Shown: one piece after another, positions 2,365-50,997 of the stretch
Layout: each line of letters begins with the position of its first letter
How positions within the stretch are numbered: position 1 is the stretch's first letter
Assembly (NCBI RefSeq): GCF_009769755.1
Contig: NZ_SDWJ01000001.1
Location: 744,001-808,000, forward strand
Length of the DNA stretch: 64,000 nt
Reading direction: 5' to 3'
DNA from: Sphingorhabdus profundilacus
GTDB taxonomy: Bacteria > Pseudomonadota > Alphaproteobacteria > Sphingomonadales > Sphingomonadaceae
Made by a program: the position numbers and the translations under genes
The notes under the pieces: generated by a model
Told to the model about the DNA's origin: nothing
Database searches by the model: none
The model's input: only the letters and a program-made list of their open reading frames with translations

Positions 2365-3297
2365 ATGGAACCTGCACCGCATTATGAAGACCAATATCTC
2401 GCTCTCATGCGCCGGATATGGACAGAAGGAACGGTTCAGCGTGACCGGACCGGTGTTGGAACCCGCGCTGTTTTCGGCGCGATGATGCGGTTTTCATTGG
2501 CGGACGATGCCGTCCCCTTGCTAACGACGAAACGGGTATATTGGAAAACTGCGGCCCGTGAAATGCTTTGGTTTTTGACCGGAAACACCAACATCCGCCC
2601 GCTATTGCAGCAAAAGGTGCGGATATGGACCGACTGGCCGCTTGACCGCTATCGCCGCGAAACCGGAAGCGACATCACGCAGGATGATTTCGAGGCCCAA
2701 ATTGTGGGCAGCGCTGAATTTGCGGAAAAATGGGGCGATCTTGGCCCTGTTTATGGGGCGCAATGGGTGAATTGGCCCAATTATCAACCGGTGGGCGAGG
2801 GGCTATTCCAGAAAATGGAAAAAGGCATCGATCAGGTCAGCCTGCTGGTCGAAAGCCTGAAAAACAATCCGGGTTCAAGACGACATATCATCGAAGGGTG
2901 GAATGTAGCTGAACTGGACCGGATGGCATTGCCGCCTTGTCACAAAACCTATCAGTTTCATGTCGCCGATGGGGTATTAAGCTGCATATTATTTCAGCGA
3001 TCTTGCGATCTGGGTCTGGGCTTTGCCTTCAATGCCTTTTCAGCCGCGCTTTTGATCCGGATGCTCGCCAACGTTTGCGGATATCAGCCGGGCGAGTTGA
3101 TTTGGCAGGGCGGTGATGTACATCTCTATCTCAATCATAGTGATCTGGTGGAGGAGCAATTATCGCGCACGCCATCGGGTAACCCAAAGTTGAAATTACT
3201 TCGCACGCCGCAGAGTATATTCGACTTTGCAATTGAGGATTTTGAAGTCGTCGATTATACGCCACAATCCCATATTTCCGCGCCGGTCGCGGTATGA
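2365..3297 (+). CDS. thyA: Thymidylate synthase
   Basis: Converts dUMP and 5,10-methylene-THF to dTMP and dihydrofolate in the cytoplasm. The 310-residue product carries the ThyA landmarks: an N-terminal RDRTGVGT loop, KTAAREMLWFLTGNTNI, the catalytic Cys192 in ALPPCHKTYQFH, RSCDLGLGFAFN (dUMP binding) and HLYLNH. It is longer than the 264-residue E. coli enzyme because of an insertion after RIWTDWPLDRYR, as in the longer thyA class. I chose the ATG at 2365 because the 18 codons before it resemble no ThyA N-terminus. No dihydrofolate reductase gene follows in this window. It stands alone between tRNA-Pro and the bkd operon. Confidence 0.96.
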   Translation: MEPAPHYEDQYLALMRRIWTEGTVQRDRTGVGTRAVFGAMMRFSLADDAVPLLTTKRVYWKTAAREMLWFLTGNTNIRPLLQQKVRIWTDWPLDRYRRETGSDITQDDFEAQIVGSAEFAEKWGDLGPVYGAQWVNWPNYQPVGEGLFQKMEKGIDQVSLLVESLKNNPGSRRHIIEGWNVAELDRMALPPCHKTYQFHVADGVLSCILFQRSCDLGLGFAFNAFSAALLIRMLANVCGYQPGELIWQGGDVHLYLNHSDLVEEQLSRTPSGNPKLKLLRTPQSIFDFAIEDFEVVDYTPQSHISAPVAV

Positions 3298-3408
3298 ATG
3301 CAGGATAGGTCAGCACTATTGACCTAAAGCAATGCTTGAAATAATATAACAATCGCAGACAATAAATTACCTGAGTCGTTCAGGGAGTTCAGAGGCGGAG
3401 GAACAAGC

Positions 3409-4695
3409 ATGGGGCAGCATCAAAGGGAAAATCTTGCGCCGCTGCATCTGCATATTCCCGAACCCAAATTCCGGCCCGGAGACAAGGCGGATTTCAGCGA
3501 TATTATAGTCCCCGAAGTAGACGCAATCGCCCGCCCTGATGAACATGTGGCGCCGGCGGATATTCATGCACTGGCCTATGGCCTTGTCCGGGTCCTTGAT
3601 GATGAAAATGCCGCGACAGGTAGCTGGAACCCCGGGTTAAGCGCAGATACTTTGCGATTGATGCTGCGCAAGATGTTGACCTTGCGCGCCTTTGATGACC
3701 GGATGTTCCGCGCGCAGCGGCAGGGCAAAACAAGCTTTTACATGAAATCATTTGGTGAGGAAGCGACATCGGTCGCGACCACAATGGCTTTACACCGGGA
3801 TGACATGTGTTTTCCGAGCTATCGCCAGCAAGGCATTTTAATTACACGCGATTATCCACTGGTCGACATGATGAACCAGATATATTCCAACCGTGGTGAC
3901 CGGTTGAAAGGGCGGCAATTGCCGATCATGTATTCCGCCAAAGACTATGGCTTTTTCAGCATTTCGGGAAATTTAACGACGCAATATCCGCAAGCCGTAG
4001 GTTGGGCAATGGCGTCGGCGTCGCGGGCCGATACCCGTATTGCAGCTGTATGGTGCGGTGACGGCTCTACGGCCGAAGGTGATTTCCACAGCGCGCTAAC
4101 GTTCGCCGCCGTTTATAATGCGCCAGTTATTTTTCAGGTTGTGAACAACCAATGGGCTATTTCCTCTTTTTCAGGATTTGCCGGAAGTGAACGGACGACC
4201 TTCGCTGCGAAAGCCATCGGCTATGGCATTGCTGGACTACGGGTCGATGGAAACGATGTGCTGGCAGTTTATGCCGCGATGCAATGGGCGGCCAATCGGG
4301 CGCGGACCAACAATGGCCCGACCCTGATCGAATATTTCACCTATCGTGGGGAAGGGCATTCGACCTCCGACGATCCCAATGCCTATCGCGCCGCTGAAGA
4401 ATATGCCCTGTGGCCCTTGGGCGACCCTGTTGAACGGTTAAAAGCGCATCTGATTGCGACGGGGGAATGGACGCACGAGCAGCATGAGGCGCTGGTTGCG
4501 ACTTTGTCCGATGAGGTCAAAGCCAAGCAGAAAGAAGCCGAGCAAAATGGCATTTTGGGCCATGGTCTGCATCATCCATTTGAAACCATGTTTGAAGATG
4601 TCTTCGAAGAAATGCCGGCGCACTTGAAAGAACAATGCGCGCAAATGCTCGAAGAACAGCACGACAAATTCGGTCCGGAATGGGAGGCGCGCTGA
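3409..4695 (+). CDS. bkdA1: Branched-chain 2-oxoacid dehydrogenase E1 alpha subunit
   Basis: ThDP-dependent decarboxylase subunit of the complex that oxidises the 2-oxo acids of Val, Leu and Ile. It has 428 residues. The ThDP motif runs from GDGSTAEGDFHSA (about residue 217) to NNQWAIS, and the loop RGEGHSTSDDPNAYR is typical of BCKDH E1alpha rather than pyruvate dehydrogenase. The N-terminal extension PEPKFRPGDKADFS also fits the bacterial BCKDH type. GGAGG lies 9 nt before the ATG. The stop overlaps the E1beta start (TGATG). First gene of a three-gene operon. Confidence 0.93.
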   Translation: MGQHQRENLAPLHLHIPEPKFRPGDKADFSDIIVPEVDAIARPDEHVAPADIHALAYGLVRVLDDENAATGSWNPGLSADTLRLMLRKMLTLRAFDDRMFRAQRQGKTSFYMKSFGEEATSVATTMALHRDDMCFPSYRQQGILITRDYPLVDMMNQIYSNRGDRLKGRQLPIMYSAKDYGFFSISGNLTTQYPQAVGWAMASASRADTRIAAVWCGDGSTAEGDFHSALTFAAVYNAPVIFQVVNNQWAISSFSGFAGSERTTFAAKAIGYGIAGLRVDGNDVLAVYAAMQWAANRARTNNGPTLIEYFTYRGEGHSTSDDPNAYRAAEEYALWPLGDPVERLKAHLIATGEWTHEQHEALVATLSDEVKAKQKEAEQNGILGHGLHHPFETMFEDVFEEMPAHLKEQCAQMLEEQHDKFGPEWEAR

Positions 4696-5723
4696 TGTCT
4701 GACGCTGCGACCAAAACCATGAACATGATCGAAGCAATTAACAGCGCACTTGACGTCATGTTAGGCCAGGACCCGGATGTTGTGATCATGGGTGAAGATG
4801 TTGGCTATTTTGGCGGGGTGTTTCGCGCCACGGCAGGTTTGCAGAAAAAGCATGGCAAGACCCGGGTGTTTGACACACCGATCAGCGAATGCGGCATCAT
4901 CGGTGTTGGTGTGGGCATGGCAGCCTATGGCCTGCGTCCCGTGCCAGAAATCCAGTTTGCCGATTATATCTACCCCGGTCTTGATCAATTGGTCAGCGAA
5001 GCGGCACGTATGCGCTATCGGTCCGCAAATGACTTCATCTGTCCGATGACCGTGCGATCCCCCTTTGGTGGCGGCATTTTCGGGGGCCAAACCCATAGTC
5101 AAAGCCCGGAAAGCCTGTTCACCCATGTTTGCGGCATAAAAACGGTTATCCCTGCCACGCCCTATGACGCCAAGGGACTGCTGATCGCCGCCATCGAGGA
5201 TAATGATCCCGTCGTCTTTTTTGAACCCAAGCGTATCTATAATGGCCCGTTTACAGGCTATTACGACCGACCCGTCGAGCCTTGGTCAAAACATGAAGGC
5301 AGCGCAGTGCCGGAGGGGCATTACCGGATAGAATTAGGCAAAGCGGCGATCGTTCGCGAAGGCGGGGCCGTCACCGTTCTCACCTATGGCACCATGGTCC
5401 ATGTGGTCAAAGCCGTTGTCGCCGAACATGGAATCGATGCGGAAATCATAGATCTGCGTACTTTATTGCCACTCGATATTGAAACGATCGAAGCCTCGGT
5501 CAAAAAAACCGGGCGTTGCATGGTGGTGCATGAGGCGACACGGACGAGTGGTTTTGGCGCCGAATTATCAGCGCAGGTGCAGGAACGCTGCTTCTATTAT
5601 CTGGAAGCGCCTGTTGAACGTGTGACCGGTTTCGACACGCCCTATCCACACAGCCTTGAATGGGCTTACTTCCCGGGACCGGTGCGGCTTGCACGCGCAT
5701 TTGACAAGATCATGAAGGATTGA
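4695..5723 (+). CDS. bkdA2: Branched-chain 2-oxoacid dehydrogenase E1 beta subunit
   Basis: Pairs with E1alpha to form the E1 heterotetramer. The 342-residue transketolase-like beta chain has VVIMGEDVGYFGGVFRAT (catalytic Glu region), PEIQFADYIYPGLDQL, RSPFGGGIFGGQTHSQSPE and a C-terminal transketolase domain with VVHEATRTSGFGAEL. The ATG at 4695 overlaps the E1alpha stop, which favours it over an in-frame codon 60 nt upstream. It ends 4 nt before the E2 start. Assignment to branched-chain rather than pyruvate substrate is by family resemblance of the set. Confidence 0.93.
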   Translation: MSDAATKTMNMIEAINSALDVMLGQDPDVVIMGEDVGYFGGVFRATAGLQKKHGKTRVFDTPISECGIIGVGVGMAAYGLRPVPEIQFADYIYPGLDQLVSEAARMRYRSANDFICPMTVRSPFGGGIFGGQTHSQSPESLFTHVCGIKTVIPATPYDAKGLLIAAIEDNDPVVFFEPKRIYNGPFTGYYDRPVEPWSKHEGSAVPEGHYRIELGKAAIVREGGAVTVLTYGTMVHVVKAVVAEHGIDAEIIDLRTLLPLDIETIEASVKKTGRCMVVHEATRTSGFGAELSAQVQERCFYYLEAPVERVTGFDTPYPHSLEWAYFPGPVRLARAFDKIMKD

Positions 5724-5727
5724 GCTG

Positions 5728-6993
5728 ATGGCCAAATTCACATTCAACCTCCCCGATATTGGCGAAGGCATTGCCGAGGCAGAAATTGTGGCGTGGCATG
5801 TCAAAGTAGGCGACCATATTACAGAAGACCAGCCGCTTGCCGATATGATGACCGACAAGGCCACGGTTGAAATGGAAAGTCCGGTCGCCGGCGTGGTGAC
5901 TAGGGTCGCGGGCGATGAAGGCGATGTTATTGCCATCGGGTCCATGCTGGTTGAAATCGAAACGACGAGTGACGTCAGTGACGTCAGTCCGAAGATACTG
6001 GAAGCTGTGGCGGTACCTGCCGAAACAAAAGCGGATGAGGATGAAATACAGCAAGCGCCGGTGCTTGCCACCGTAGCTGTTGAGGCCCAAACGGAAAAGG
6101 CAACGGTACCGGAATCTGCCATTACGGCCCACCGCGTCGTTACCGCATCGCCCGCTGTGCGCGCTCGTGCGAAGGATCTGGGTGTGGATTTGAGTGACGT
6201 CAAGGCGGCAGGCGGGCATGTGCGCCATGCCGACCTTGATGCCTATTTGAACTATGGTTCAGGGCAGGGCTATCGCGCGCCGCAAAGTTCGGCCAAGCGC
6301 AATGATGAGAGTATCAAGGTGATTGGCATGCGTCGGCGTATTGCCGATAATATGGCGGCGTCCAAGCGCCATATTCCCCACTTTACCTATGTCGACGAAA
6401 TTGACGTGACAGCTATCGAAGCCATGCGTGCGGACCTGAATGCGAACCGGGGAAGCAAACCAAAGCTGACCCTTTTACCAATGTTGATCGTGGCAATTTG
6501 CAAAACGATCCCGCAATTCCCGATGCTGAATGCCCGTTTCGATGACGAAGCTGGCATCGTTACACGTCACGGATCGGTTCATCTGGGTATGGCCACGCAA
6601 ACCCCGGCCGGATTGATGGTTCCAGTCATACGCGACGCACAGGACCGGAATATCTGGCAATTGGCGTCAGAAATTAGCAGATTGGCTGACGCCGCACGCA
6701 ATGGCAGCGCGAAAAGCGAGGAATTGTCAGGATCTACGATGACGATAACGTCATTAGGGCCGCTGGGCGGAATCGCCACCACACCTGTCATCAATCGGCC
6801 TGAGGTTGCGATCATCGGTCCAAACAAGATCGTCGAACGTCCGATGTTTGTGGGTGATACGATCGAGGCGCGCAAGCTGATGAACCTGTCCATTAGCTGC
6901 GACCATCGCGTCGTCGACGGCTGGGATGCCGCAAGTTATGTGCAGGCGCTCAAAAAACTGGTCGAGACGCCCGTGCTGCTCTTCGCCGACTAG
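5728..6993 (+). CDS. bkdB: Branched-chain 2-oxoacid dehydrogenase E2 (dihydrolipoamide acyltransferase)
   Basis: Core acyltransferase of the complex, 421 residues. Domains: a single lipoyl domain (1-78) with lipoylated Lys44 in MMTDKATVEME; a linker with acidic and Ala/Val-rich stretches; a peripheral-subunit-binding domain (about 140-172, SPAVRARAKDLGVDL); and a catalytic CAT domain with SISCDHRVVDGWDAA (His393, Asp397). A dihydrolipoamide dehydrogenase (E3) gene does not follow, so E3 is presumably shared and encoded elsewhere. Its stop lies 10 bp from the stop of the convergent 1705-residue gene, with no evident terminator between them. Confidence 0.93.
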   Translation: MAKFTFNLPDIGEGIAEAEIVAWHVKVGDHITEDQPLADMMTDKATVEMESPVAGVVTRVAGDEGDVIAIGSMLVEIETTSDVSDVSPKILEAVAVPAETKADEDEIQQAPVLATVAVEAQTEKATVPESAITAHRVVTASPAVRARAKDLGVDLSDVKAAGGHVRHADLDAYLNYGSGQGYRAPQSSAKRNDESIKVIGMRRRIADNMAASKRHIPHFTYVDEIDVTAIEAMRADLNANRGSKPKLTLLPMLIVAICKTIPQFPMLNARFDDEAGIVTRHGSVHLGMATQTPAGLMVPVIRDAQDRNIWQLASEISRLADAARNGSAKSEELSGSTMTITSLGPLGGIATTPVINRPEVAIIGPNKIVERPMFVGDTIEARKLMNLSISCDHRVVDGWDAASYVQALKKLVETPVLLFAD

Positions 6994-7003
6994 GTGTAAG
7001 ACC

Positions 7004-10000
7004 TTAAAATTTGATGCCGGCAAGGCTATTCTGGTCGAACTTGAGCTTGAGCGTTATATACGGCCCGGATCGGGTGTAGCGGCTCTCTTCAAAGTCGCGA
7101 TCTTCAAAGCCCACAATATTATACCCAACCGATATATTGCTGTTGTCGATAGGGGCAACGGTCAGGACCGGGCCAACGGAATAAGCAATATTTTTGCCGC
7201 CGGTTCCGATACGAACGGTGCCTGCGGCACCGAAATCTGCATATTTGCTGAAGTCGAATTTCGCGTCGACACCGACCACATTGCTCCAGCCTTCGACATC
7301 ATCGGGGCCGAAGCGGTCTGTGGAGTAACGGGTTCCCCAAAAAAGGGCATATTCGCCGCGTTCGACAAAATTCCCGTCCAGATCGTCAATCGGGGTGTAG
7401 TTCACCGAAAGGCTGTTGATGACACGCCGTGATTTGGCATCGCCATCAATATTGAGCGGTGCGCCGCCAATTGGGCCTGCTTCGCCAGCAACAGCATCGC
7501 GCACCGCATCATAGCGGAATTCGGTTTTGTTCAGGATCGCCCACTGGCTATCGGCAGGGCGGTGGGCCCAGCTTATTTCGGCTTGCGCTGTGGTGGTAGA
7601 TGCTCCGCCAATTTCATTGGCGCGGAACCAGCTAAATGCTCCGCCCACGGCACGGCCTTCGCCAATCTGGCGCAGGATGGCGGTGGTCAGGCCATAACGG
7701 GTGGTGGTTTCACCGTCGCGATATTCAGCGCGGCCAGTCCAGCTCCACCGGTCACCGCGATAGGTTGCGCCGCCGGTTACCGCTGTGAAATCTTCGGTCA
7801 GGCTGCTGTCGCTTCCCAGAAATCCACCTGATGCGACAGGTTGCAAGGGATTGACGACATCTGCGCGGCTAAAACCGTTCAATGTCTTATTGCCGTCGAC
7901 CGTCATGTCGACAGACCATTTTTCGCTAATCCGGAAAGACTGGGCGAGGCCGTAAGCGGCAAAGGTACGGGGGCCAAATTCGGTAATCTGTTGCTGGTTG
8001 GCGCTGGCCAATATGCGGCCACCGGCCCAAGGCGCAACGTCGAAACCAAGGCGGGCCGTTCGCGCATTTATGTTTTCGCCCTTGGCAATTTCATAACCTG
8101 CGATCAACGCGACATCGGACCGAATGGCATAGCGCGCCGATACACTATGCCGCGCGGGGAAGTCGACGCTTTCATCCTGATCGTTTAAGGCAAATTCGGT
8201 CTGGCCCGACAATTCCAGTTTACCATCCAGTAGACGTTGTGAAGCGCCCAGTTTGACGAGGGACGACTGATTGTTCGTACCATCGGAAAGTTGGTCATCG
8301 GCATGTGTCAAACCTGCGCGTAATGTGGTGTTTCCGTCCCGATATTCCAGCTCGCCAATTGCAGCGCGGCGACGCGCATCGTTTCCGAAAAACTCTTCCT
8401 GATAAGCAATTAACGATGCCGACAGCTTTTCAGTCAGGCGCACACGGCCATCAACGCCAAATTTGCGCGTGCCGATTTCGGAGCGATTGATCTGGCCAAC
8501 CCCAAATCCGGCCTGCTGTTCACGTACATAAGCGACTATGTCGTAATTTTCATCATGATGTTCGGCCTCAATCATCCAGGCGATTGCACCACGTGCGGCT
8601 GGCGCGTTTGATTTTGACTGGGCTGATGACCCGGCAAATTCGGCGCGGATTTCGGTTCCAATGCCGGGACGATAAATGAGATCCGCACCGACCAGATCGG
8701 TTTTGGAAACATCATTTTCGTCGTGAATGCCCGTGGCGGCGATTTGCAGTTTTTCATCCGCGCTTTTCCAGCGGACGCGTCCGCCTGCGTTTGCCACACG
8801 CTTGCCGATACCGTCGACTTCATATTCAGCAATGATGAACTGCGGATCAAGTCCGCTACCACGCGATAAAATGGGTTGGCGGAAACGCAGAGTACCGGCC
8901 AGATAATCAATGTCATAGTCAATGTGACGGAACAGCGTCTTGCGTTCGACAATCCGGTCCGACCGCAATCGGTCGCGCGTTTCCAAAATGATAAGCTCGC
9001 TATTTGCAATGACATCGCGCGCCGAAAGGGCATAGGGGCCGGACAAGCCATTGCCCTGTATTTCCTCACGACGGAAGCGCGTGGGCGTATCCGATCCAAA
9101 TGCCGTCGCCTGTATGGCATCGTTGCGATATTCCGCCTTCACGCCATTGAAAGAACGCTGATAGCGGGCGAGTTCCGGTTCATCGATGCCGGTTTGATAA
9201 TCTCCAAACAGCGCATAAAATTGCGGACGCTCCAGCTTAAGATATAGTCGGCGAACTGATGCTGCGTCATAACGCTGGTCAGTGCGGTCGGCATAAATCG
9301 TGTAATAGCTGCGCGGGTCGATAACACCGGCAAAGCGGGTTTCGTCTTCTTTTTTGTCCGTGTCATACGCCATGGTCATCAGCCATTTGCCGCTAACACG
9401 ACCCTTGGCATAAAGCGCTATACGACCATCAATATTGAGCGAGTCTGTATCGCCGGCATGTTCTTCCAAGCCTTCTTCAAGCTTGTTAAATCCAATGGTT
9501 CCAGCAGCGAAACCGACGACGGTCCAGGGACGATTGCCCGGGTCCAGCCAAGTTTCCACCCGCTGTTCACGCCGAACTTCGCCATCGACAAAGTTGAAAC
9601 CGATGGCGAGTGAGCCCGATGCCGTCGTGGGTTCAAGTTCGATATAGGCGATGCCATCGTCGCCTTGCACCCGCCATACGGGCGCTGCACGTTCCAGACC
9701 CGACAATTGACGGGCTTGCTCGGCGTCGACCTCAATTGCCGGACGGTAGGGCGCTGTGACGCTGAAATCGCCGACCGAACCGTGTTGGATTGGCTTACCA
9801 CTGCGATCGGTTAACCGGACTGCAATGCGCGGCCGCGTCACGCCATCTGCTAGCAAGATGGACTTGTCTTTCAAAAATTGTGCCTTCATCGGGGCATGGG
9901 CGAAATATACATCCCGCTCGAGTGTTTCGACCACATTGCCGGACGCATCTTTGATATTTGCGATCAGCTTGTTCGGCCCATCTTCAATACCGACACCGCG

Positions 10001-42981: not shown

Positions 42982-45282
42982 TTAGCTTCGAAGCCGCTCA
43001 ATCGCTTGCGCCAAAGCCACATAAAGCTTGCCCACATCCGATGATAGCATTGTGACACATATTGCATTTCCATCACGGGTGCTGAGCAACACGCGCATCA
43101 TGGCCTCGAAGTCATGGATATACCGGTTTACATGTTCCCGAAACTCGGCGTCCTGGCCATAATGCGTTGCGATTGTTCGCGACTCTCCTGCGTCTAAAAG
43201 CCTGACTGCACGCCGGGTAAAGACGCCGCGGTCTCCTTTCAAATAGGCAGCCCAAGCGGTGTCTGTGACTTCATTTGAAAGAATTTTGGCAACATCGATC
43301 GAAGTAGAATTCAACGATTCAGTCAGCAGCACCATTCGGCGGGCAAAACTGTCATCATCGATACCTTCAAAGCCGCTCCGGCTTTCTGCAATGCGCTTTT
43401 CAAGATTGGTGGCCAGTTCTTCAAGTTGACTGATTTGCGATGTTAGCTTGACCGTCGACGTTTCAGATAATGTCAGATTCCGCTCAATCGCTGCGTGGAT
43501 AAGATCATTCATGGAATTGACCTGATTATTGATTGCGGTGGCAAGCGATGCCTGATTTTGTTCTGTCAAACGATCGGCGACATGCGCCAGCTCTTCATCG
43601 ATTATCCGACGACTATCTTCAGCCGCCTGTTTTGTACTCGCACGCAGCCCCTCGAGCGAAATGTTCAATTTGGATTTAGCTTCATTCGTAATCGTATCCA
43701 GCAGGGCGCGGGTTTCTGCCAACGCCAAAGTGAGTGTTTCCACCTGTTCATGACGCGCCACAAAATAGGCGTCGCTTTCGGTCATTATCTTTTCAACGTC
43801 GCCCCTCTGACTGTTGATTAAGGTGCCAAGATTGTTCGTTCTGTCCAAAAGAGACTCACTCAGCTCATTGAGTTGCTGAGCACTTCCCGACGCCGCATGA
43901 ATTTGTTCTGCTGCGACGGAAAAGTTCGTATCAATCAATTCTATCGACCCGGGAATTGTGCTCGATATTTCATGGTTGACCGTTTTCAATGCCAGCAGAA
44001 GTCGATCGGACAATTCCATCAAAGACCGGGTAATTTGCTGATTATTGTTCAGATCGGTTCCGACTGCGCGTGTACTTTCGCTCAAAGCAGAAACTGCGAA
44101 TGCAAGTTTTGCCGTCTGGTCAGTTGCGGCTTGATCGATTTCAGTAATTCTGGCCGAGCTCAATCCTATATGTTTTTCAACCTCGCCGATAATCGCAAAA
44201 ATGCGGGAGCGTTCTTCTTCTGATTGCTCCGATAGGTCTATGAGGCTGTTCTTGACCTGCGAGACATTTTCTCCAATTTTTTCAGAACTTTCTTGAATAA
44301 GGCTTTCCAAATCGCTGGATATGGTTGCTATTTTCTGCACCATATTTTCAGCAGCGCTGTTTAACAAAGCTGCGGACAATGCCGCGCGTTTCTCACTTTC
44401 GACGCCCGCATGGTCTAATGCAGCGGCGCCTTCACGTGAAATTTTATCGAGTTTTTCAAAAACAGTTTCTGCACGAGATCCGACTTGGTCGATATAATCA
44501 CGGGTTGAAATACCAGCCTCTCCGATACGTTCCAGGCCGGAAATTAGAAGTTTTATCTGAAGCTGTGCATTGTTTCCGGCACTTCCGATTTGATTGGTGA
44601 CATCCTTGGCCGCGCTGGTAACGACAGGCAAATGTTTCCGCAATTGCTCCAGGTTGCTCGTGGCTGCGTTGCTGACGGCCTCTAAAGTCTTTGCCTTTTC
44701 ATCGCTATCGGCAAGCGATGCGGTCAATATTTCGGCCGCTTCCAACATATGTTGTGATGAGCGTTTACCGACCGATTCCAGCTCCAGCGCATTTTGCGAG
44801 AGAAATTGCCGTGCCATGGAAATTTCTTCGTTGACCGTTCGCATACGTGCCTCAAGCGATTCACTTTCTTGCCGTAACAATCGGGCGACATCGCCAAAAC
44901 GGGTCGACTCTGCGCGACTGTGACGCATTGCCAGCAGCCATGTGACCGCCAATAGCACAAGGGGCAATGCCCACATATTTGTTAACGTAATTGCACGTTC
45001 CGCGGAAATTCCCTGCATGACTTCAGGATAATTTGTGACGCCGAAAAATACTGACCACATTAAAGCGGACAGGATAGCAAATGCAGGAAATAGATATTCT
45101 TTCCAACTGCTTGTCCGGATTTCCGGATATTCCCAATCCGATTGATAGCCACTGCTTTCAAGGTCCGCATCAGTGATGAATGGGGACTCATCAGCCGCGC
45201 TTTCCGGTACAGGCACATGTGTTGCCAGCTCGGGGCTTTCTATATGCCTTGTAAGGCCTATAATTTTTGATCGTGAAGTCAT
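42982..45282 (-). CDS. Two-TM coiled-coil protein (TipN-like architecture)
   Basis: Protein of 766 residues: acidic N-terminal 60 residues, two membrane helices (about 66-86, LFPAFAILSALMWSVFFGV, and about 103-122, MWALPLVLLAVTWLLAM), then about 500 residues of nearly unbroken heptad-rich coiled coil (Ser/Ala/Glu/Leu), and a distinct C-terminal unit from about 650 with AYLKGDRGVFTRRAVRLLD, IHDFEAMMRVLL and SSDVGKLYVALAQAIERLR. The layout (N-terminal TM pair plus long cytoplasmic coiled coil) is that of the polarity factor TipN of Caulobacter; homology is not proven. Divergent from the HPt-like gene (71 bp gap). Confidence 0.75.
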   Translation of the reverse strand: MTSRSKIIGLTRHIESPELATHVPVPESAADESPFITDADLESSGYQSDWEYPEIRTSSWKEYLFPAFAILSALMWSVFFGVTNYPEVMQGISAERAITLTNMWALPLVLLAVTWLLAMRHSRAESTRFGDVARLLRQESESLEARMRTVNEEISMARQFLSQNALELESVGKRSSQHMLEAAEILTASLADSDEKAKTLEAVSNAATSNLEQLRKHLPVVTSAAKDVTNQIGSAGNNAQLQIKLLISGLERIGEAGISTRDYIDQVGSRAETVFEKLDKISREGAAALDHAGVESEKRAALSAALLNSAAENMVQKIATISSDLESLIQESSEKIGENVSQVKNSLIDLSEQSEEERSRIFAIIGEVEKHIGLSSARITEIDQAATDQTAKLAFAVSALSESTRAVGTDLNNNQQITRSLMELSDRLLLALKTVNHEISSTIPGSIELIDTNFSVAAEQIHAASGSAQQLNELSESLLDRTNNLGTLINSQRGDVEKIMTESDAYFVARHEQVETLTLALAETRALLDTITNEAKSKLNISLEGLRASTKQAAEDSRRIIDEELAHVADRLTEQNQASLATAINNQVNSMNDLIHAAIERNLTLSETSTVKLTSQISQLEELATNLEKRIAESRSGFEGIDDDSFARRMVLLTESLNSTSIDVAKILSNEVTDTAWAAYLKGDRGVFTRRAVRLLDAGESRTIATHYGQDAEFREHVNRYIHDFEAMMRVLLSTRDGNAICVTMLSSDVGKLYVALAQAIERLRS

Positions 45283-45352
45283 AACAACCTGTTTACCATA
45301 TTTTATCCACAGGGAAACGCAAAGTTAACCCTATGTTCGTTATAAGTTTTGA

Positions 45353-45667
45353 ATGTCTATGGATTATGGCTCGTTTGACACAGCTTTAAAGGCTGCCGCT
45401 GGCGAAGACAGCGCGCTAATAGCTGAACTGCGCGCTACTTTTGTCGAAAGTGCCAAGAGGCAATTAAGCCTTCTAACTCGGTCACGATGTGATGCGAACT
45501 GGCAATATACAAGCTGGAGACTTAAGGGTCTTGCAGCTAGTTTCGGGGCCATGAAATTGATGCTTTTGGCGGACGAAGCTGTGGAAGGTGCTCCCGGAGA
45601 TCCGGTTGTCTTACGCAAAATCGGGAGAGCTATCCAAGAAATCGAGACGTACGAATTTACCGCGTGA
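45353..45667 (+). CDS. HPt-like protein lacking the phospho-accepting histidine
   Basis: The 104-residue product is an all-helical protein matching the HPt pattern: ELRATFVESAKRQLSLL, then the active-site helix region YTSWRLKGLAASFGAMKLML, then ADEAVEGAPGDPVV. In HPt proteins the helix reads H-x-L-K-G-x-x-x-x-x-G; here Trp55 occupies the His position (SW-RLKG). It therefore cannot take a phosphoryl group there, unless another residue is used. ATG at 45353, with a second ATG two codons on. Divergent from the TipN-like gene. Role presumably binding, perhaps of a kinase or receiver domain. Confidence 0.75.
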   Translation: MSMDYGSFDTALKAAAGEDSALIAELRATFVESAKRQLSLLTRSRCDANWQYTSWRLKGLAASFGAMKLMLLADEAVEGAPGDPVVLRKIGRAIQEIETYEFTA

Positions 45668-45850
45668 TGAAGTTAGGTCAGATGTGGAAGATCGGACGAA
45701 CCCACCCCGTTTCCGCTTCAGATGAGAGGATACGGAGCCTTGGCCGATATGCATAGGCCTAGTTGGAGAGGCACCGCAATGGTGACCCATCGATAAATTG
45801 GTTAAACGCAAAAAATTGGGTGGCAATAGTTGATCACAGCCCATATCGGC

Positions 45851-47083
45851 ATGAATATGTCGATTTCTGCTCACTCGATGAATGTCGCTGCACTTCTATC
45901 AACGGCAAATGCGTCCGATGGAGTAAACGTCCGGAACGGCGCTGAAAGTCATAAGCCGGTGGTGGGGCACACTATTTTGGAGTTGCAGATAAGAGCGCTC
46001 CATAAGGCGGGCTGTACCTTTTTTATCATTGAGGTGGATCAGGTTTCCGGCGCGCTGCTGGAATTGGTTGATGGCTTTCGAAGAGAGGGAGTGTCAATCG
46101 AGTTTGCGCGTTCTATCAAAGATTTACAGACACTTGTCGAACCTGAAATGCGACTCTATCTTCTTGCAGAAGATCACTTTTTGTCGGAAAAATTCGTCAT
46201 CGAGTTGACGACAAGTGACGGCGCATTCATTGCAACTTTCGACAGTAGGGAAGAGAATGCCGGTTTTGAGAGAATTGATCTCAACACACGTTGGTCGGGT
46301 TTTGCATCGATCGAAGCCAAGCGCATTTTTTCGATGAGCGACCTTCCGGACGACTGGAGTATTATTTCTTCGTTGCTCCGCCATGCTATTCAAGAAAAAG
46401 TCCCGTTTTTGCCATTGCAACAGATAGTTGTTCAGAAAATGGATATCGTACACGTTTCCAATTCGGTCATTGCCGATGCGCTCAATATACAAATATTGCG
46501 GAACAGGGCCGATTCTATCCTTGGATGGACCGAGCGGCTTATCTACGCCCCTATCGCAAGGTGGCTTGCGCCCCATATCTGGAAAAGTGATGGATATCGC
46601 GTTGGCTCAAAATTTTCAGGAATTTCTTTTGCTATCATCTGTTTCACAATGGCGATGCTGGATTGGCAAGATCTGGCGCTATGGACTGCGCTGTTGGCGG
46701 TTTTCTGCAACCATTTGAATGTTATCGCGATGGGAGAAGATCGTAACCGTAATGCGCCGTCGGCGCTTGTTGTCTTCTTCTGGCTCTTCCTATGTGCGGC
46801 AGGATTGGCGATGGCATATTCCGCAAGCGATTATGGATCCGATCCGGTTTTGTTTATGGCCATTTCTATCGGGCTTGCCCTATTGGCGCGAAAACTGGAA
46901 TTGCCGGCATGGACGAAATCTGTGACACATTCGCCAAGCCTGTTTGTTTTTGGTTTGATTGTAGCTCAAACTCTATCGGCCTTTTCAATTGGTCTTCGGG
47001 TTTTAGCGATTTCGCAACTTTTACTTCTCATTGCCGGGCGGTATATATTTGAGAGCAAAGTGGTAAAGTTGAATCAGGCTTAA
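45851..47083 (+). CDS. Membrane protein with degenerate nucleotidyltransferase-like N-terminal domain
   Basis: About 410 residues. The N-terminal 200 residues resemble a sugar-nucleotide-type nucleotidyltransferase fold (KPVVGHTILELQIRALHKAG, FFIIEVDQ, LYLLAEDHFLS), but the Gly-rich GxGTR loop and a metal-binding DxD were not found. From about residue 250 come about six TM helices (SGISFAIICFTMAMLDWQDL, ALWTALLAVF, LVVFFWLFLCAAGLAMAY and others). CDP-alcohol phosphotransferase motifs are absent. Start uncertain: ATG 45851 or 45857, or TTG 45830. Function unknown; lies in the signalling-like cluster. Confidence 0.65.
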   Translation: MNMSISAHSMNVAALLSTANASDGVNVRNGAESHKPVVGHTILELQIRALHKAGCTFFIIEVDQVSGALLELVDGFRREGVSIEFARSIKDLQTLVEPEMRLYLLAEDHFLSEKFVIELTTSDGAFIATFDSREENAGFERIDLNTRWSGFASIEAKRIFSMSDLPDDWSIISSLLRHAIQEKVPFLPLQQIVVQKMDIVHVSNSVIADALNIQILRNRADSILGWTERLIYAPIARWLAPHIWKSDGYRVGSKFSGISFAIICFTMAMLDWQDLALWTALLAVFCNHLNVIAMGEDRNRNAPSALVVFFWLFLCAAGLAMAYSASDYGSDPVLFMAISIGLALLARKLELPAWTKSVTHSPSLFVFGLIVAQTLSAFSIGLRVLAISQLLLLIAGRYIFESKVVKLNQA

Positions 47084-47100
47084 AGCGACGTTAACCTTTA

Positions 47101-48099
47101 TTGGTTACGATTCACGATCTAATTAGCTTGGAAATTCCGTTGGATCACGGTTTTGGCGAAAAATTTGAGTTATTGAAAGTGGCAGCTACACATGCGCGCG
47201 ACATTCATGCATTGTGTTCGGATGTCGCAGGGATTATCTTTCCGAAGGCGATAAATCCGCTGAGCGATGAAACGATCAATCAGGTTTCAACCAGAATCAT
47301 AACGCTGGTGTCTGATCTGGAAAAGATATTCAATATCAGCTCAGATACGCCACGTCCCGTAACTTGGGAGATATTGGCGTCCTCTGGATTTTTGCGCGAA
47401 CCGGATCTGATCGACTTCATATTGGCAAGGGTCGCCGAAGAGCGCCTGAATTCCTTTATCAAAAATAAAGTGACCAGCCTGCCGGTGCTGCTTCTTGACC
47501 ATTCGGATGGTGCGATTGCCGAGGCTGCACAAACATTGTTGGCGGCCGAAAGCCTTCAGCGGCTTGGTTCCGGCCATAGCTATCTCGCGCTCCCACCGGA
47601 ATTGCTGCACAAGTTATGTTGGCGGATAGTCGCCGCAATAGAAGTCATAGAAGGTGACAGGCGACCTGACATCATTGCTTCAGCGAAATTCCTCCTATCG
47701 CAATATTCGGAGGCTGATCGCGCTCAGGATGCTGCGAAGAAAATTGTGCATCTCACCAATGGAGTAGATAACAGTGATTTCTATTTTCCGGAGGTTTCCG
47801 GATTGCACTTATACACTGCCGCACTTTCCGCGCGTTTGGAACTCGATTTCGACCATGTTTTGCGACTGCTTAACTCGCACTCAACAACCCCTCACGCCAT
47901 CCTCTTATCTGCCTGCAATTTTCCAATACAGCATGCAGTTCAAAACATTGTTCTGTTTAGCGGCGATCTAATATCTTCCCATGATGCAGGACTCTTTGAA
48001 GTCGGATATTCGTCGATTTCGTTTGAAGCTGCATCGGAAGAAATTGGTTTCTGGGCGTCAGAACGGTCGCAGTTTCTTTTAGCTGGAATATCGGGGTGA
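47101..48099 (+). CDS. DUF2336 domain protein
   Basis: The 332-residue, soluble, helix-rich protein has the DUF2336 character: repeated helical units with LDHSDGAIAEAAQTLLAAES, LPPELLHKLCWRIVAAIEVI and LARVAEERLNSFIKNK. DUF2336 is a family of unknown function found in alphaproteobacteria, often beside two-component genes. The frame opens with a TTG at 47101, 17 bp after the previous stop; no ribosome binding site is evident and the real start may lie inside. Its stop overlaps the histidine kinase GTG (GTGA), so the two are coupled. Confidence 0.75.
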   Translation: MVTIHDLISLEIPLDHGFGEKFELLKVAATHARDIHALCSDVAGIIFPKAINPLSDETINQVSTRIITLVSDLEKIFNISSDTPRPVTWEILASSGFLREPDLIDFILARVAEERLNSFIKNKVTSLPVLLLDHSDGAIAEAAQTLLAAESLQRLGSGHSYLALPPELLHKLCWRIVAAIEVIEGDRRPDIIASAKFLLSQYSEADRAQDAAKKIVHLTNGVDNSDFYFPEVSGLHLYTAALSARLELDFDHVLRLLNSHSTTPHAILLSACNFPIQHAVQNIVLFSGDLISSHDAGLFEVGYSSISFEAASEEIGFWASERSQFLLAGISG

Positions 48100-49439
48100 A
48101 CGTTCCGCATCTATCCAGGCCAGTCTTTGCCGAAGTTGACAGTAAAGGGAAGCTGCTTTGGGCTGATGAAGCGCTTTCGCTTCTAAACCAGCGGGCGGGT
48201 GGAATCGAAGGAGGGGCACTAGCAGTCCCTGCGATTGCGAAATTGGTCCGGCTATCACTTAACTTACAGATGAAGCTCTCCCGTGCCGTTAAGGTCGCCG
48301 ACTATGAAGAGAAACTGGAGTTGTGGATTGAAGTTTATCCATCACCGCAAGTCGCTAAAGTCGCCATTGTCAGCTGGAGAACATTGGCAGATCAAAAGCA
48401 TGGAGGCCATAAATCATCCCGTCCGTTCGAATCTATAAACAATAACCTAATTTTTGACACCCAGTTGCGATTGTTAAGTGCAAAAGGCGATGTCTCACAC
48501 GGTTTGGCGACGACGGACTTTGGTAAAGATGGCTGCGCCATTCTCGCTTCCATTATGGAAAACGGGGATTCTTTGAATGTTGTATTAAATGCTTTATCTT
48601 TGGGTAGTTCAATAGAGAATGCACAAATAAGGCGACAAATTGATGGGCGGTTGTTTGATGTTTGGGGCGAGCAACTTGTTGATGAACAACAGCGTGCCGT
48701 TGGATTTCGGCTGAGTTTTGTCTCGCATGGTGAGGAGACACTTGCTATTGCCGCACTGGCCCCTGTGGGCGGGGCGCTTTTTGGCAAGAATCTTGCGCCA
48801 GTGCTTCGCCAGCCCCTGGGCAGAATAATTGCGAATGCGGAAACTATTGGCGGGGAATTGCAGGGGCCCATCCGCGAAAATTATGCCTTATATGCGCGGG
48901 ACATTGCCAATGCCGCGCGACACCTGTCGGCTTTGGTTGACGACCTTGGCGACCTGGAGGCGGTTGAACGGCCTGATTTTCGCACAGCCCGTGACGAGAT
49001 TGAACTGGGTGATGTGGCACGCCGGGTAGCGGGTTTACTCGCGCTCAAGGCTGCGGATCATCGTATCGTGATCCATACCCCGACCGACGCGTCCAAGGTT
49101 ACCGCAATTGCCGAGTTTCGAAGAACGCTGCAAATTCTTTTGAATCTGGTCAACAATGCAATCCGATATTCGCCGGATGGCACGGTGATATCTATCGAAA
49201 CAGAAACGGCAGATCGCTTCGCCGTGGTTACGGTAAGTGATCAGGGAAGGGGTATCTCAATCGAAGACCGAGACAAGATCTTTGAAAAATTTGAACGTCT
49301 CGGTCGCTCCGGCGATGGGGGAAGCGGTCTGGGCTTGTATATCTCCCGACGACTGGCCCGCGCCATGGGCGGTGAATTGTCGGTCACCAATTCAGACGAC
49401 GGAGGCGCGAAATTCGTCCTCCGTCTGCCGAATTCCTAA
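48096..49439 (+). CDS. Sensor histidine kinase-like protein lacking the phospho-accepting His
   Basis: The 447-residue protein has no TM segment. N-terminal PAS-like region (VDSKGKLLWADEALSLL), dimerisation helices at about 225-285 and a complete HATPase domain: N box LVNNAIRYSPDG, G1 VSDQGRGIS, F box EKFERLG and G2 GGSGLGLYISRRLARAMGG. At the H box the motif aligned to SHELRTPL reads APVLRQPL, so Pro235 replaces the His. Autophosphorylation at that site is not possible, much as Caulobacter DivL has a Tyr there. GTG start overlaps the DUF2336 stop. No response regulator is adjacent. Confidence 0.8.
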   Translation: MNVPHLSRPVFAEVDSKGKLLWADEALSLLNQRAGGIEGGALAVPAIAKLVRLSLNLQMKLSRAVKVADYEEKLELWIEVYPSPQVAKVAIVSWRTLADQKHGGHKSSRPFESINNNLIFDTQLRLLSAKGDVSHGLATTDFGKDGCAILASIMENGDSLNVVLNALSLGSSIENAQIRRQIDGRLFDVWGEQLVDEQQRAVGFRLSFVSHGEETLAIAALAPVGGALFGKNLAPVLRQPLGRIIANAETIGGELQGPIRENYALYARDIANAARHLSALVDDLGDLEAVERPDFRTARDEIELGDVARRVAGLLALKAADHRIVIHTPTDASKVTAIAEFRRTLQILLNLVNNAIRYSPDGTVISIETETADRFAVVTVSDQGRGISIEDRDKIFEKFERLGRSGDGGSGLGLYISRRLARAMGGELSVTNSDDGGAKFVLRLPNS

Positions 49440-49445
49440 AAATAT

Positions 49446-50732
49446 TTACCGCGCGTCAAACGAGGTATAAGGCCGCGCCTGCGGTCCGGTATAAAGCTGG
49501 CGGGGGCGGCCGATTTTCTGGCCCGGGTCAGAGATCATCTCATTCCACTGTGCTACCCAACCTACTGTACGTGAAAGCGCAAATAGCACGGTAAACATTT
49601 CCGTCGGGAAACCGATGGCAGACAAAATGATGCCTGAATAAAAATCGACGTTCGGAAACAGCTTTTTCTCGATGAAATAAGGATCGTTGAGGGCCATTTC
49701 TTCAAGCTGAAGCGCAACATCGAAAATCGGGTCGCTGACTTTGAGTTCGGTCAAAACTTCACGCACCGTTTTTTGCATGACCGTGGCCCGCGGATCGTAG
49801 TTTTTATACACACGATGGCCAAAGCCCATCAACCGGAAGGGATCATTCTTGTCCTTCGCGCGCTCGATATAGTGCGGGATTTTATCCGGCGTCCCAATTT
49901 CCCGCAGCATATTGAGCGCGGCCTCATTCGCACCGCCATGTGCCGGGCCCCAAAGACATGCAATACCTGCCGCGATGCAGGCAAACGGGTTGGCACCCGA
50001 CGACCCGGCGAGGCGCACGGTAGACGTAGATGCATTTTGTTCATGGTCAGCATGGAGAATGAAAATACGATCCATTGCCCGTTCAATGACCGGATTAACA
50101 AAATAAGGTTCAGCTGGAACGCCGAAAGTCATGCGAAGGAAGTTGCCAGTATAGGACAAGCTGTTGTCGGGATAAAGGAACGGCTGACCCATTGAATATT
50201 TATACGCCATTGCGGCAATGGTCGGCATTTTGGCAATCAACCGGTGACTTGAAATCATACGGTGGGTTGGGTCGCTTATGTCGGTAGAGTCATGGTAAAA
50301 TGCCGATAAAGCCCCAACCACGCCGCACATGATCGCCATTGGATGGGCGTCGCGACGAAAACCACGATAGAAGGTCGCCAACTGTTCGTGCAGCATTGTA
50401 TGGCGAGAGATTGTCTGGCTGAAATCACCAAGCTGCGCTTTGCTTGGCAGCTCCCCGTTTAGCAAGAGGTAGGAGACCTCCATAAAGCTAGACTTTTCAG
50501 AGAGTTCTTCAATCGAATAGCCCCGGTGCAGCAAAATGCCTTCATCACCATCAATGAATGTAATCGCCGATTCACAACTTGCCGTAGAGGTGAAGCCCGG
50601 ATCGAACGTAAAATGGTCTGAAGCACTATATAATTTTCGAATATCAAGGACATCCGGCCCTTCGCTGCCTTTCATGACAGGTAGCGCGTAGCTGTTATCA
50701 CCAATTGTCAGCGTTGCATTATTATCAGCCAT
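49446..50732 (-). CDS. gltA: Citrate synthase
   Basis: Condenses oxaloacetate and acetyl-CoA at the entry of the TCA cycle. The 428-residue product is a type II (hexameric, NADH-sensitive family) enzyme: [51 protein letters not shown] and the catalytic loops [14 protein letters not shown] and [18 protein letters not shown] 50732 has GGAG 7 nt upstream; ATG 50735 is directly before it. Convergent with the kinase-like gene (6 bp gap). Upstream 260 bp to comEC contains the promoter but no certain gene. Confidence 0.96.
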
Positions 50733-50997
50733 CATCAAACTCCATTACTTCCGTCCCGATGTTTCGGGCGCCCCTGTTTCAAGCCCTGATTAAAGGCCAT
50801 GTTCCATGTTCGACAAAAGGCGTCAGAAACGCCAGATGTGATTGCTTTAGGCCCCTCAACTGCCGCTATTTCTTGGGGAGAAATTGGCATTATTGTTTTG
50901 TCGGCCATGGTGCGAAAATACACGGTCGTCAAGGCAAAGCATTTAGTTTTGATATTGTTATATTTGTCATCTGTGACATAGATGCTACGTTTCTGAC

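Follow-up and report, generated by a model that had tools for sequence, protein, structure and literature searches.

We report that five neighbouring genes at positions 42,982 to 49,439 of a 64-kb stretch of the 2.9-Mb genome of Sphingorhabdus profundilacus (contig NZ_SDWJ01000001.1, positions 744,001 to 808,000; hereafter the window) encode relatives of a polar scaffold and of phosphorelay components from which both phosphorylatable histidines (phospho-His) are missing. The genes are called here TIP (scaffold; minus strand) and, all on the plus strand, HPT (relative of histidine phosphotransfer, HPt, proteins), NT (relative of nucleotidyltransferases), D2336 (relative of DUF2336 proteins) and PK (pseudo histidine kinase). 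An earlier reading of the window (the original prediction) had proposed that these genes form a scaffold or cell-pole device in which the parts of a phosphorelay survive without phosphotransfer. We put at about even the chance that the locus is a polar assembly whose base is a membrane-anchored scaffold of the RgsE/GPR type and which carries a former phosphorelay that would no longer transfer phosphate. The loss of the two histidines throughout almost the whole family, their retention in relatives outside it, and purifying selection on all five genes carry this reading.

Results

HPT is an HPt-like protein without phospho-His

Our comparison drew on 196 genomes of the order, 113 of them in the window's family; 112 family stretches were compared by profiles built from the window genes, one genome with a PK match (G141) being left out. 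The HPT family profile is Hpt-like: Pfam Hpt matches 22 of 38 orthologues at E up to 0.1 (window HPT, 0.073). An AlphaFold2 model of window HPT (pLDDT 91) has only HPt proteins among its ten best Foldseek matches (probability 0.82–1.00, no E-value below 0.09), E. coli ArcB HPt and P. aeruginosa HptB included, and Caulobacter ShpA stands at rank 13; a sequence search of the PDB with HPT gave no match.

The window protein has no His at all, either in the aligned domain or in its 104 residues. Family-wide, the phospho-His column holds M, L, W, Q, E, A and others, and His in 0 of 64 members, with G053, the genome that branches first in the family (see below), counted apart; the 64 include second loci of two genomes (L149 and L150, of G062 and G172, used for HPT only) and one protein truncated before this column (G083). 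The same His is present in G053 and in 12/12 HPts outside the family, found among 35 scaffold loci inspected there (20 from the class, 15 from the order; the other 23 have no detectable HPt in the stretch). Because the phospho-His of the HxxKG motif is absent from all 64 family members, HPT is HPt-like but not a phosphotransfer protein. Its sequence points to descent from a His-bearing HPt of the kind encoded divergently beside scaffold genes elsewhere, Sinorhizobium meliloti included.

PK keeps the ATP site of a histidine kinase and lacks its phospho-His

PK carries a clear HATPase domain (E 8.5e-27) and a HisKA-like helix below threshold (22.3 bits; cut-off 26.9), in which the H-box SHELRTP has become APVLRQP, with Pro235 at the phospho-His place. 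For PK we counted 103 family members, an unrelated kinase of G105 (L201) being set aside from the 104 aligned. The phospho-His column is His in two of the 103, namely G053 (SHELRTPL) and G195 (LDHALRSP, an odd context), and otherwise varies among P, R, G, D, S, Q, E, N, K, T, A and V; the same His is present in 11/11 DUF2336-paired kinases outside the family. Each of nine residues of the ATP site (HATPase N, G1, F and G2 boxes) is kept in 101–103 of the 103. The claim that both the HPt-like and the kinase-like protein lack phospho-His thus held for the window and nearly family-wide. The N-terminal half of window PK is probably a degenerate PAS region: as many as 13 of 37 aligned PK members have matches to Pfam PAS families, the window protein not among them.

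A kinase tree places 18 family PKs with 12 DUF2336-linked kinases in a single clade (support 1.0); outside it fall 10 further kinases from the window genome and two kinases that adjoin TIP elsewhere (L192 and L193; His present, not DUF2336-paired and outside the 11/11 count). This placement argues for descent of PK from a normal PAS-HisKA kinase encoded beside DUF2336, mostly behind flgK-flgL-like genes. DivL has a Tyr at the phospho-His place; an identity of PK with DivL was rejected, as a separate SYEFRTP kinase (L271) lies in the window genome and PK groups with the DUF2336-linked kinases.

D2336 and its flagellar context

D2336 is probably a diverged DUF2336 protein, an assignment that comes by way of its relatives: the window protein by itself has no DUF2336 (PF10098) match in Pfam. 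Of 10 family orthologues scanned, four pass the Pfam cut-off (best 3.2e-16), one is weak and five give no match; in a mixed alignment 19 of 36 members match (best 1.7e-71), and among the strongest scores are eight rows that belong to G053 or to genomes outside the family. A single-sequence search with window D2336 found relatives in 10 of the 196 genomes, and the wider counts come from an iterated profile, whose successive rounds gave 10, 40 and 63 loci and which connects the window protein with the Pfam-passing orthologues. The structure model is all-alpha (pLDDT 85.5) and gave nothing usable against the PDB by fold, as did the protein by sequence. The NCBIfam SpbR model (NF052659) scores 158 bits on the DUF2336 protein of G053, under its 400-bit cut-off; window D2336 matches no NCBIfam model at E up to 1. 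A literature search for the word DUF2336 found no paper.

Outside the family and in G053, the DUF2336-kinase pair lies near a FlgK-family gene in 9 of 12 loci and near a FlgL/flagellin-family gene in 10 of 12 (L138–L148 and L127; family names assigned from G053 proteins). Because most of these loci adjoin such genes, they suggest that the ancestral DUF2336-linked kinase had a flagellar or pole role. Within the family, dependence on the flagellum was rejected: of 30 genomes searched, 8 have no flgK match and yet retain PK (G071, G152, G180, G077, G116, G191, G165 and G153), and therefore the locus is not tied to the flagellum there. Two side observations concern the same genes. FlgK frames measure about 430–510 residues in flagellated family genomes with the PK locus, and 469 and 555 residues in G135 and G173, which are without PK; they measure 650–724 residues in G053, G105, G121 and G155. 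A change of the flagellar system may have accompanied relocation of the DUF2336-kinase pair. A second DUF2336 gene of G053 (G053:C16:80125-80946, L290) lies away from the kinase pair.

TIP resembles RgsE/GPR-type scaffolds

The last ~120 residues of TIP are its best-conserved part, and a profile of this C-terminal domain matches 91 of 241 genomes across the class and all 28 genomes that were selected in the order, in open frames of about 500–2750 residues. In Sinorhizobium meliloti CP090106 it matches a 2089-residue protein annotated 'kinesin'; BLASTP of window TIP against that protein gives 38% identity over 112 residues, the last 112 of TIP (E 1e-18). RgsE has been described as a polar protein of 2,089 residues with apolipoprotein domains and two transmembrane helices (PMC7327166). 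We take the S. meliloti 'kinesin' for RgsE because its length is that of the described protein. An apolipoprotein match on TIP (PF01442; E 3.4e-4, 20.8 bits) is far under the cut-off of 90. Taken together, the C-terminal domain and the two-transmembrane layout, which hydropathy bears out at residues 64–82 and 100–118, suggest that TIP is an RgsE/GPR-type scaffold.

In CP090106 (L323), an Hpt gene (2087-2455) carrying AHRLKG lies divergent to and adjoining the 2089-residue gene (3073-9342); the main text of the RgsE paper contains the string 'hpt' 0 times (PMC7327166). The CP090106 record is labelled pSymB yet is 3.7 Mb long and has cytochrome bc1 genes.

NT is a putative pseudoenzyme

Orthologue alignment favours ATG 45878 as the probable start of NT over TTG 45830. 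An NT profile searched against the PDB matches structure 4mnd, of the inositol-phosphate enzyme IPCT-DIPPS, over the membrane half (E 3.5e-6) and nucleotidyltransferases over the N-terminal part (best 1.7e-4); phmmer with window NT alone found no PDB match. MobA-like matches occur in 11 of 34 NT members at E up to 0.1. Outside the family, a search of the class sample, which covered four family genomes besides, gave only weak matches to ordinary CDP-alcohol transferases and nucleotidyltransferases.

The CDP-alcohol phosphotransferase motif is D-x2-DG-x2-AR. As had been predicted for the window protein, a regular expression for it finds nothing there, and the motif is missing from 106 of 107 NT proteins, being present only in G155. 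The NT of that genome (L220:4741-7653) has DGVDGKLAR, passes the Pfam CDP-OH_P_transf cut-off and lies directly before a gene for myo-inositol-1-phosphate synthase; it is possibly an active enzyme for inositol-phosphate head groups, encoded next to the scaffold. By its sequence, NT joins a nucleotidyltransferase part, of the inositol-phosphate cytidylyltransferase kind, to a CDP-alcohol phosphotransferase part, both of them degenerate, and is the third enzyme relative at the locus to lack its catalytic motif.

Conservation of the locus and order of events

All five genes are present in 58 of the 112 family stretches, and their adjacency, part of the original prediction, holds to that extent. 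TIP occurs with NT in 92 stretches and D2336 with PK in 87; detected D2336 is always accompanied by PK (87/87), PK occurs without detected D2336 in 16 stretches, the converse in none, and nine have neither. In five of the 16 (besides the decaying locus of G083), a gap of 500–950 bases precedes PK and may hold a D2336 too diverged to detect.

An annotated Sphingomonas parapaucimobilis record (NZ_CP155749) repeats this gene order, flanked by RNase J/DUF1467 on one side and citrate synthase/ComEC on the other, with two additional genes ahead of TIP and the annotations 'hypothetical', 'Hpt domain-containing', two 'hypothetical' and 'HAMP domain-containing sensor histidine kinase'; read by eye, the His of HxxKG and that of the H-box are both missing from this block. 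Because the gene order and the absence of these residues are repeated from genome to genome in the family, chance is ruled out for the observation itself.

Outside the family the genes form two separate pairs that keep their catalytic residues: scaffold with His-bearing HPt, and DUF2336 with His-bearing kinase. In G053 the pairs likewise lie apart, with both phospho-His kept, and this genome is the first branch of the family in an RNase J tree of 99 sequences, 88 of them from the family (support 0.992 for the family, 1.0 for the rest). Beyond G053 the tree is weakly ordered (G105/G121/G155, 0.829; the remaining 84, only 0.211). The other family members examined have a merged or partly broken locus without the two His (the odd-context His in the PK of G195 apart), most of them with both pairs and NT in one place, or have lost HPT, D2336 and PK.

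All five genes are under purifying selection and are kept for some function. The ratio of nonsynonymous to synonymous substitution rates (dN/dS), computed for 14 of 17 close pairs picked, with frames taken stop to stop and dS above 1 in many pairs, lies between 0.03 and 0.39 for each gene; medians are 0.15 for PK, 0.14 for D2336 (11 pairs), 0.17 for HPT (6), 0.17 for TIP (12) and 0.19 for NT, and 0.065 for the citrate synthase gene gltA (11).

Layout and flanks

HPT, NT, D2336 and PK could be one operon, with TIP divergent from it: the GTG start of PK overlaps the D2336 stop by 4 bases and the NT-D2336 gap is 17 bases (Table 1). Promoter-like sites around the locus are at shuffled expectation (5 found, 5.5 expected), and a terminator scan is about there as well (8 found, 5.7 expected). 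Pantothenate kinase, RNase J and DUF1467 lie on one flank, citrate synthase and ComEC on the other; DUF1467 was named from Pfam, the rest from sequence and the matching order in the S. parapaucimobilis record. The citrate synthase gene of the window (49446-50738) is convergent to PK, and a citrate synthase gene shares the stretch with PK in 90 of the 103 family genomes having PK. Caulobacter citrate synthase has been described as a cell-cycle regulator, in a study that employed a tipN mutant (PMC7083601); the proximity of the window gene to PK may be coincidence.

Table 1. Positions of the locus features in the window
Feature	Position	Strand	Description
TIP	42982..45282	-	766 residues; putative RgsE/GPR-type scaffold, two transmembrane segments towards the N-terminus, then a long middle part and a conserved C-terminal domain
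TIP C-terminal domain (residues 640-766)	42982..43365	-	73% mean column identity in 29 family rows; class-wide
TIP two predicted transmembrane segments (residues 64-82, 100-118)	44929..45093	-	from hydropathy
TIP-HPT divergent intergenic stretch	45283..45352	.	70 bases
HPT	45353..45667	+	104 residues; HPt-fold protein, phospho-His replaced by Trp55 (45515-45517)
NT	45830..47083	+	417 residues; IPCT-DIPPS-like, degenerate; four hydropathy-predicted transmembrane segments; likely start 45878
D2336	47101..48099	+	332 residues; probable diverged DUF2336 protein, all-alpha predicted fold
PK	48096..49439	+	447 residues; pseudo histidine kinase, HisKA-like dimer helix without His, intact HATPase
Pro235 codon of PK (phospho-His position)	48798..48800	+	

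Discussion

Our comparisons are consistent with a device that uses phosphorelay parts without phosphate. In such a device, TIP would hold the complex at the growing or new pole, and HPT would serve as a docking adaptor on TIP; PK would bind ATP and, together with D2336, change its conformation when its N-terminal half reads a signal; NT would act as a membrane pseudoenzyme that may bind a CDP- or inositol-linked head group and place the complex in the membrane; and output would pass through ATP- or ligand-gated binding, as in DivL, not through phosphate transfer. On this basis we tentatively propose that, near the root of the family, an entire phosphorelay branch linked to a polar growth scaffold turned into a phosphotransfer-free device, three pseudoenzymes (pseudo-HPt, pseudo-kinase and pseudo-inositolphosphotransferase) and a DUF2336 partner being recruited to the scaffold gene to signal the pole by ATP- or lipid-gated binding. 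The proposal that phosphorelay parts survive without phosphotransfer fits the sequences, the His being missing nearly family-wide and present in the outgroups; that the five proteins act jointly is the more conjectural half of it.

Several observations weigh against a joint polar device. NT is present with TIP absent from the stretch in 15 of 112 genomes (NT, D2336 and PK without TIP), and HPT, found in 62 of the 96 TIP stretches, is undetectable in the other 34; because of these two counts, the parts of the locus are separable in many genomes. D2336 goes undetected in 25 of 112 stretches, and the clade G105/G121/G155, together with G133, has kept TIP with HPT, D2336 and PK missing. The family PKs taken by themselves are monophyletic with a support of only 0.395 in the kinase tree. 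Both His losses, moreover, fall on one branch, so that their concurrence could be a coincidence and the link between them is suggestive, not statistical. Finally, 39 of the 64 family HPTs have another His (SFHA) 10 residues downstream of the phospho-His column, a position occupied by Gly in the window protein.

Such separability would be expected if the genes were neighbours by descent only, TIP/HPT, NT and D2336/PK being three functionally separate modules that happen to sit between RNase J and citrate synthase. Besides the counts above, six genomes have TIP and NT without PK (G131, G181, G193, G135, G173 and G155), the genes lie on two strands, and the flanking housekeeping genes are likewise conserved in place. 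Two pairs that are apart in relatives nevertheless merged in the same lineage that lost both phospho-His, for which drift is a poor explanation, and we regard simple neighbourhood as unlikely, if the most serious rival.

The downstream SFHA His raises the question whether the relay still transfers phosphate through other residues, this His or another residue of PK, or whether PK phosphorylates in trans or acts as a phosphatase. The preserved ATP-site motifs of PK would suit such activity, as would H276 in its second dimer helix, which is invariant in a mixed alignment, normal kinases included. Against it, window HPT is devoid of His, and the PK column is variable, with the acidic residue at H+1 changed to V or A in 90 of 104 aligned proteins and H+4 being Q in 62 of 104; residual phosphotransfer therefore seems quite improbable to us. 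We consider it very improbable that the module is decaying and its genes are relics bound to be lost. In the window's own genus, an in-frame TGA interrupts the PK of G083 (L071), whose HPT is truncated and whose D2336 is undetectable, and both D2336 and PK are gone from G131 and G181; the dN/dS values and the nearly invariant ATP motifs of PK speak against decay elsewhere than around G083. A polar assembly no longer transferring phosphate is thus the reading we prefer.

Single pseudokinases and pseudo-HPt proteins are already known. What is new here is one locus where relatives of a kinase, an HPt and a lipid enzyme all lack their catalytic residues, with living outgroups that keep catalytic versions; the locus amounts to a natural experiment on phosphorelay parts acting without phosphate. 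Our work also extends RgsE/GPR-type scaffolds to the window's group, ties an HPt gene to an rgsE-length gene in Sinorhizobium, and places DUF2336 beside a kinase and flagellar hook-type genes.

Relation to known systems

The predicted relations to HPt, kinase and polar-scaffold proteins are borne out by sequence (for HPt also by the predicted fold), with one change of wording: 'TipN-like' is better stated as RgsE/GPR-like. TipN of Caulobacter crescentus is described as a new-pole marker of 882 residues (PMC13170164, PMC10127582). The original prediction likened TIP to it by a polarity-factor layout; a scan of genome contigs with a relative from the class as query returned two MAGs. A literature search combining TipN with Sphingomonas or Sphingomonadales found no paper on the locus, most subscription journals being outside its coverage.

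The other parts have counterparts as well. SpbR is tied to cell-pole development in Caulobacter by a title in the reference list of PMC12700997; its model finds a match below cut-off in the DUF2336 protein of G053 and none in window D2336. A Caulobacter hybrid kinase without the conserved His is on record (PMC11481889), and the pseudo-HPt papers found by literature search concern plants. DivL is a pseudokinase reported to control CckA by interaction at the cell pole (PMC7200025); DivL and PK are both kinase relatives, and the window genome has a DivL-like Tyr kinase elsewhere. NT and IPCT-DIPPS (4mnd) share the same fusion of a nucleotidyltransferase with a membrane CDP-alcohol phosphotransferase, NT being without the motif.

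A further likeness is to RgsE. Passages on its homologues name Rhizobiales, Emcibacterales and Rhodospirillales and do not name the window's group (PMC7327166). Two N-terminal transmembrane helices and homologous last 112 residues are common to TIP and the RgsE-like proteins, and the RgsE-length gene of S. meliloti has a divergent HPt neighbour, as does TIP. TIP is much the shorter, with 766 residues against 2089–2115 for the RgsE type, and the window locus differs from the RgsE locus in that its HPt has no His and that NT, D2336 and PK stand alongside the scaffold gene.

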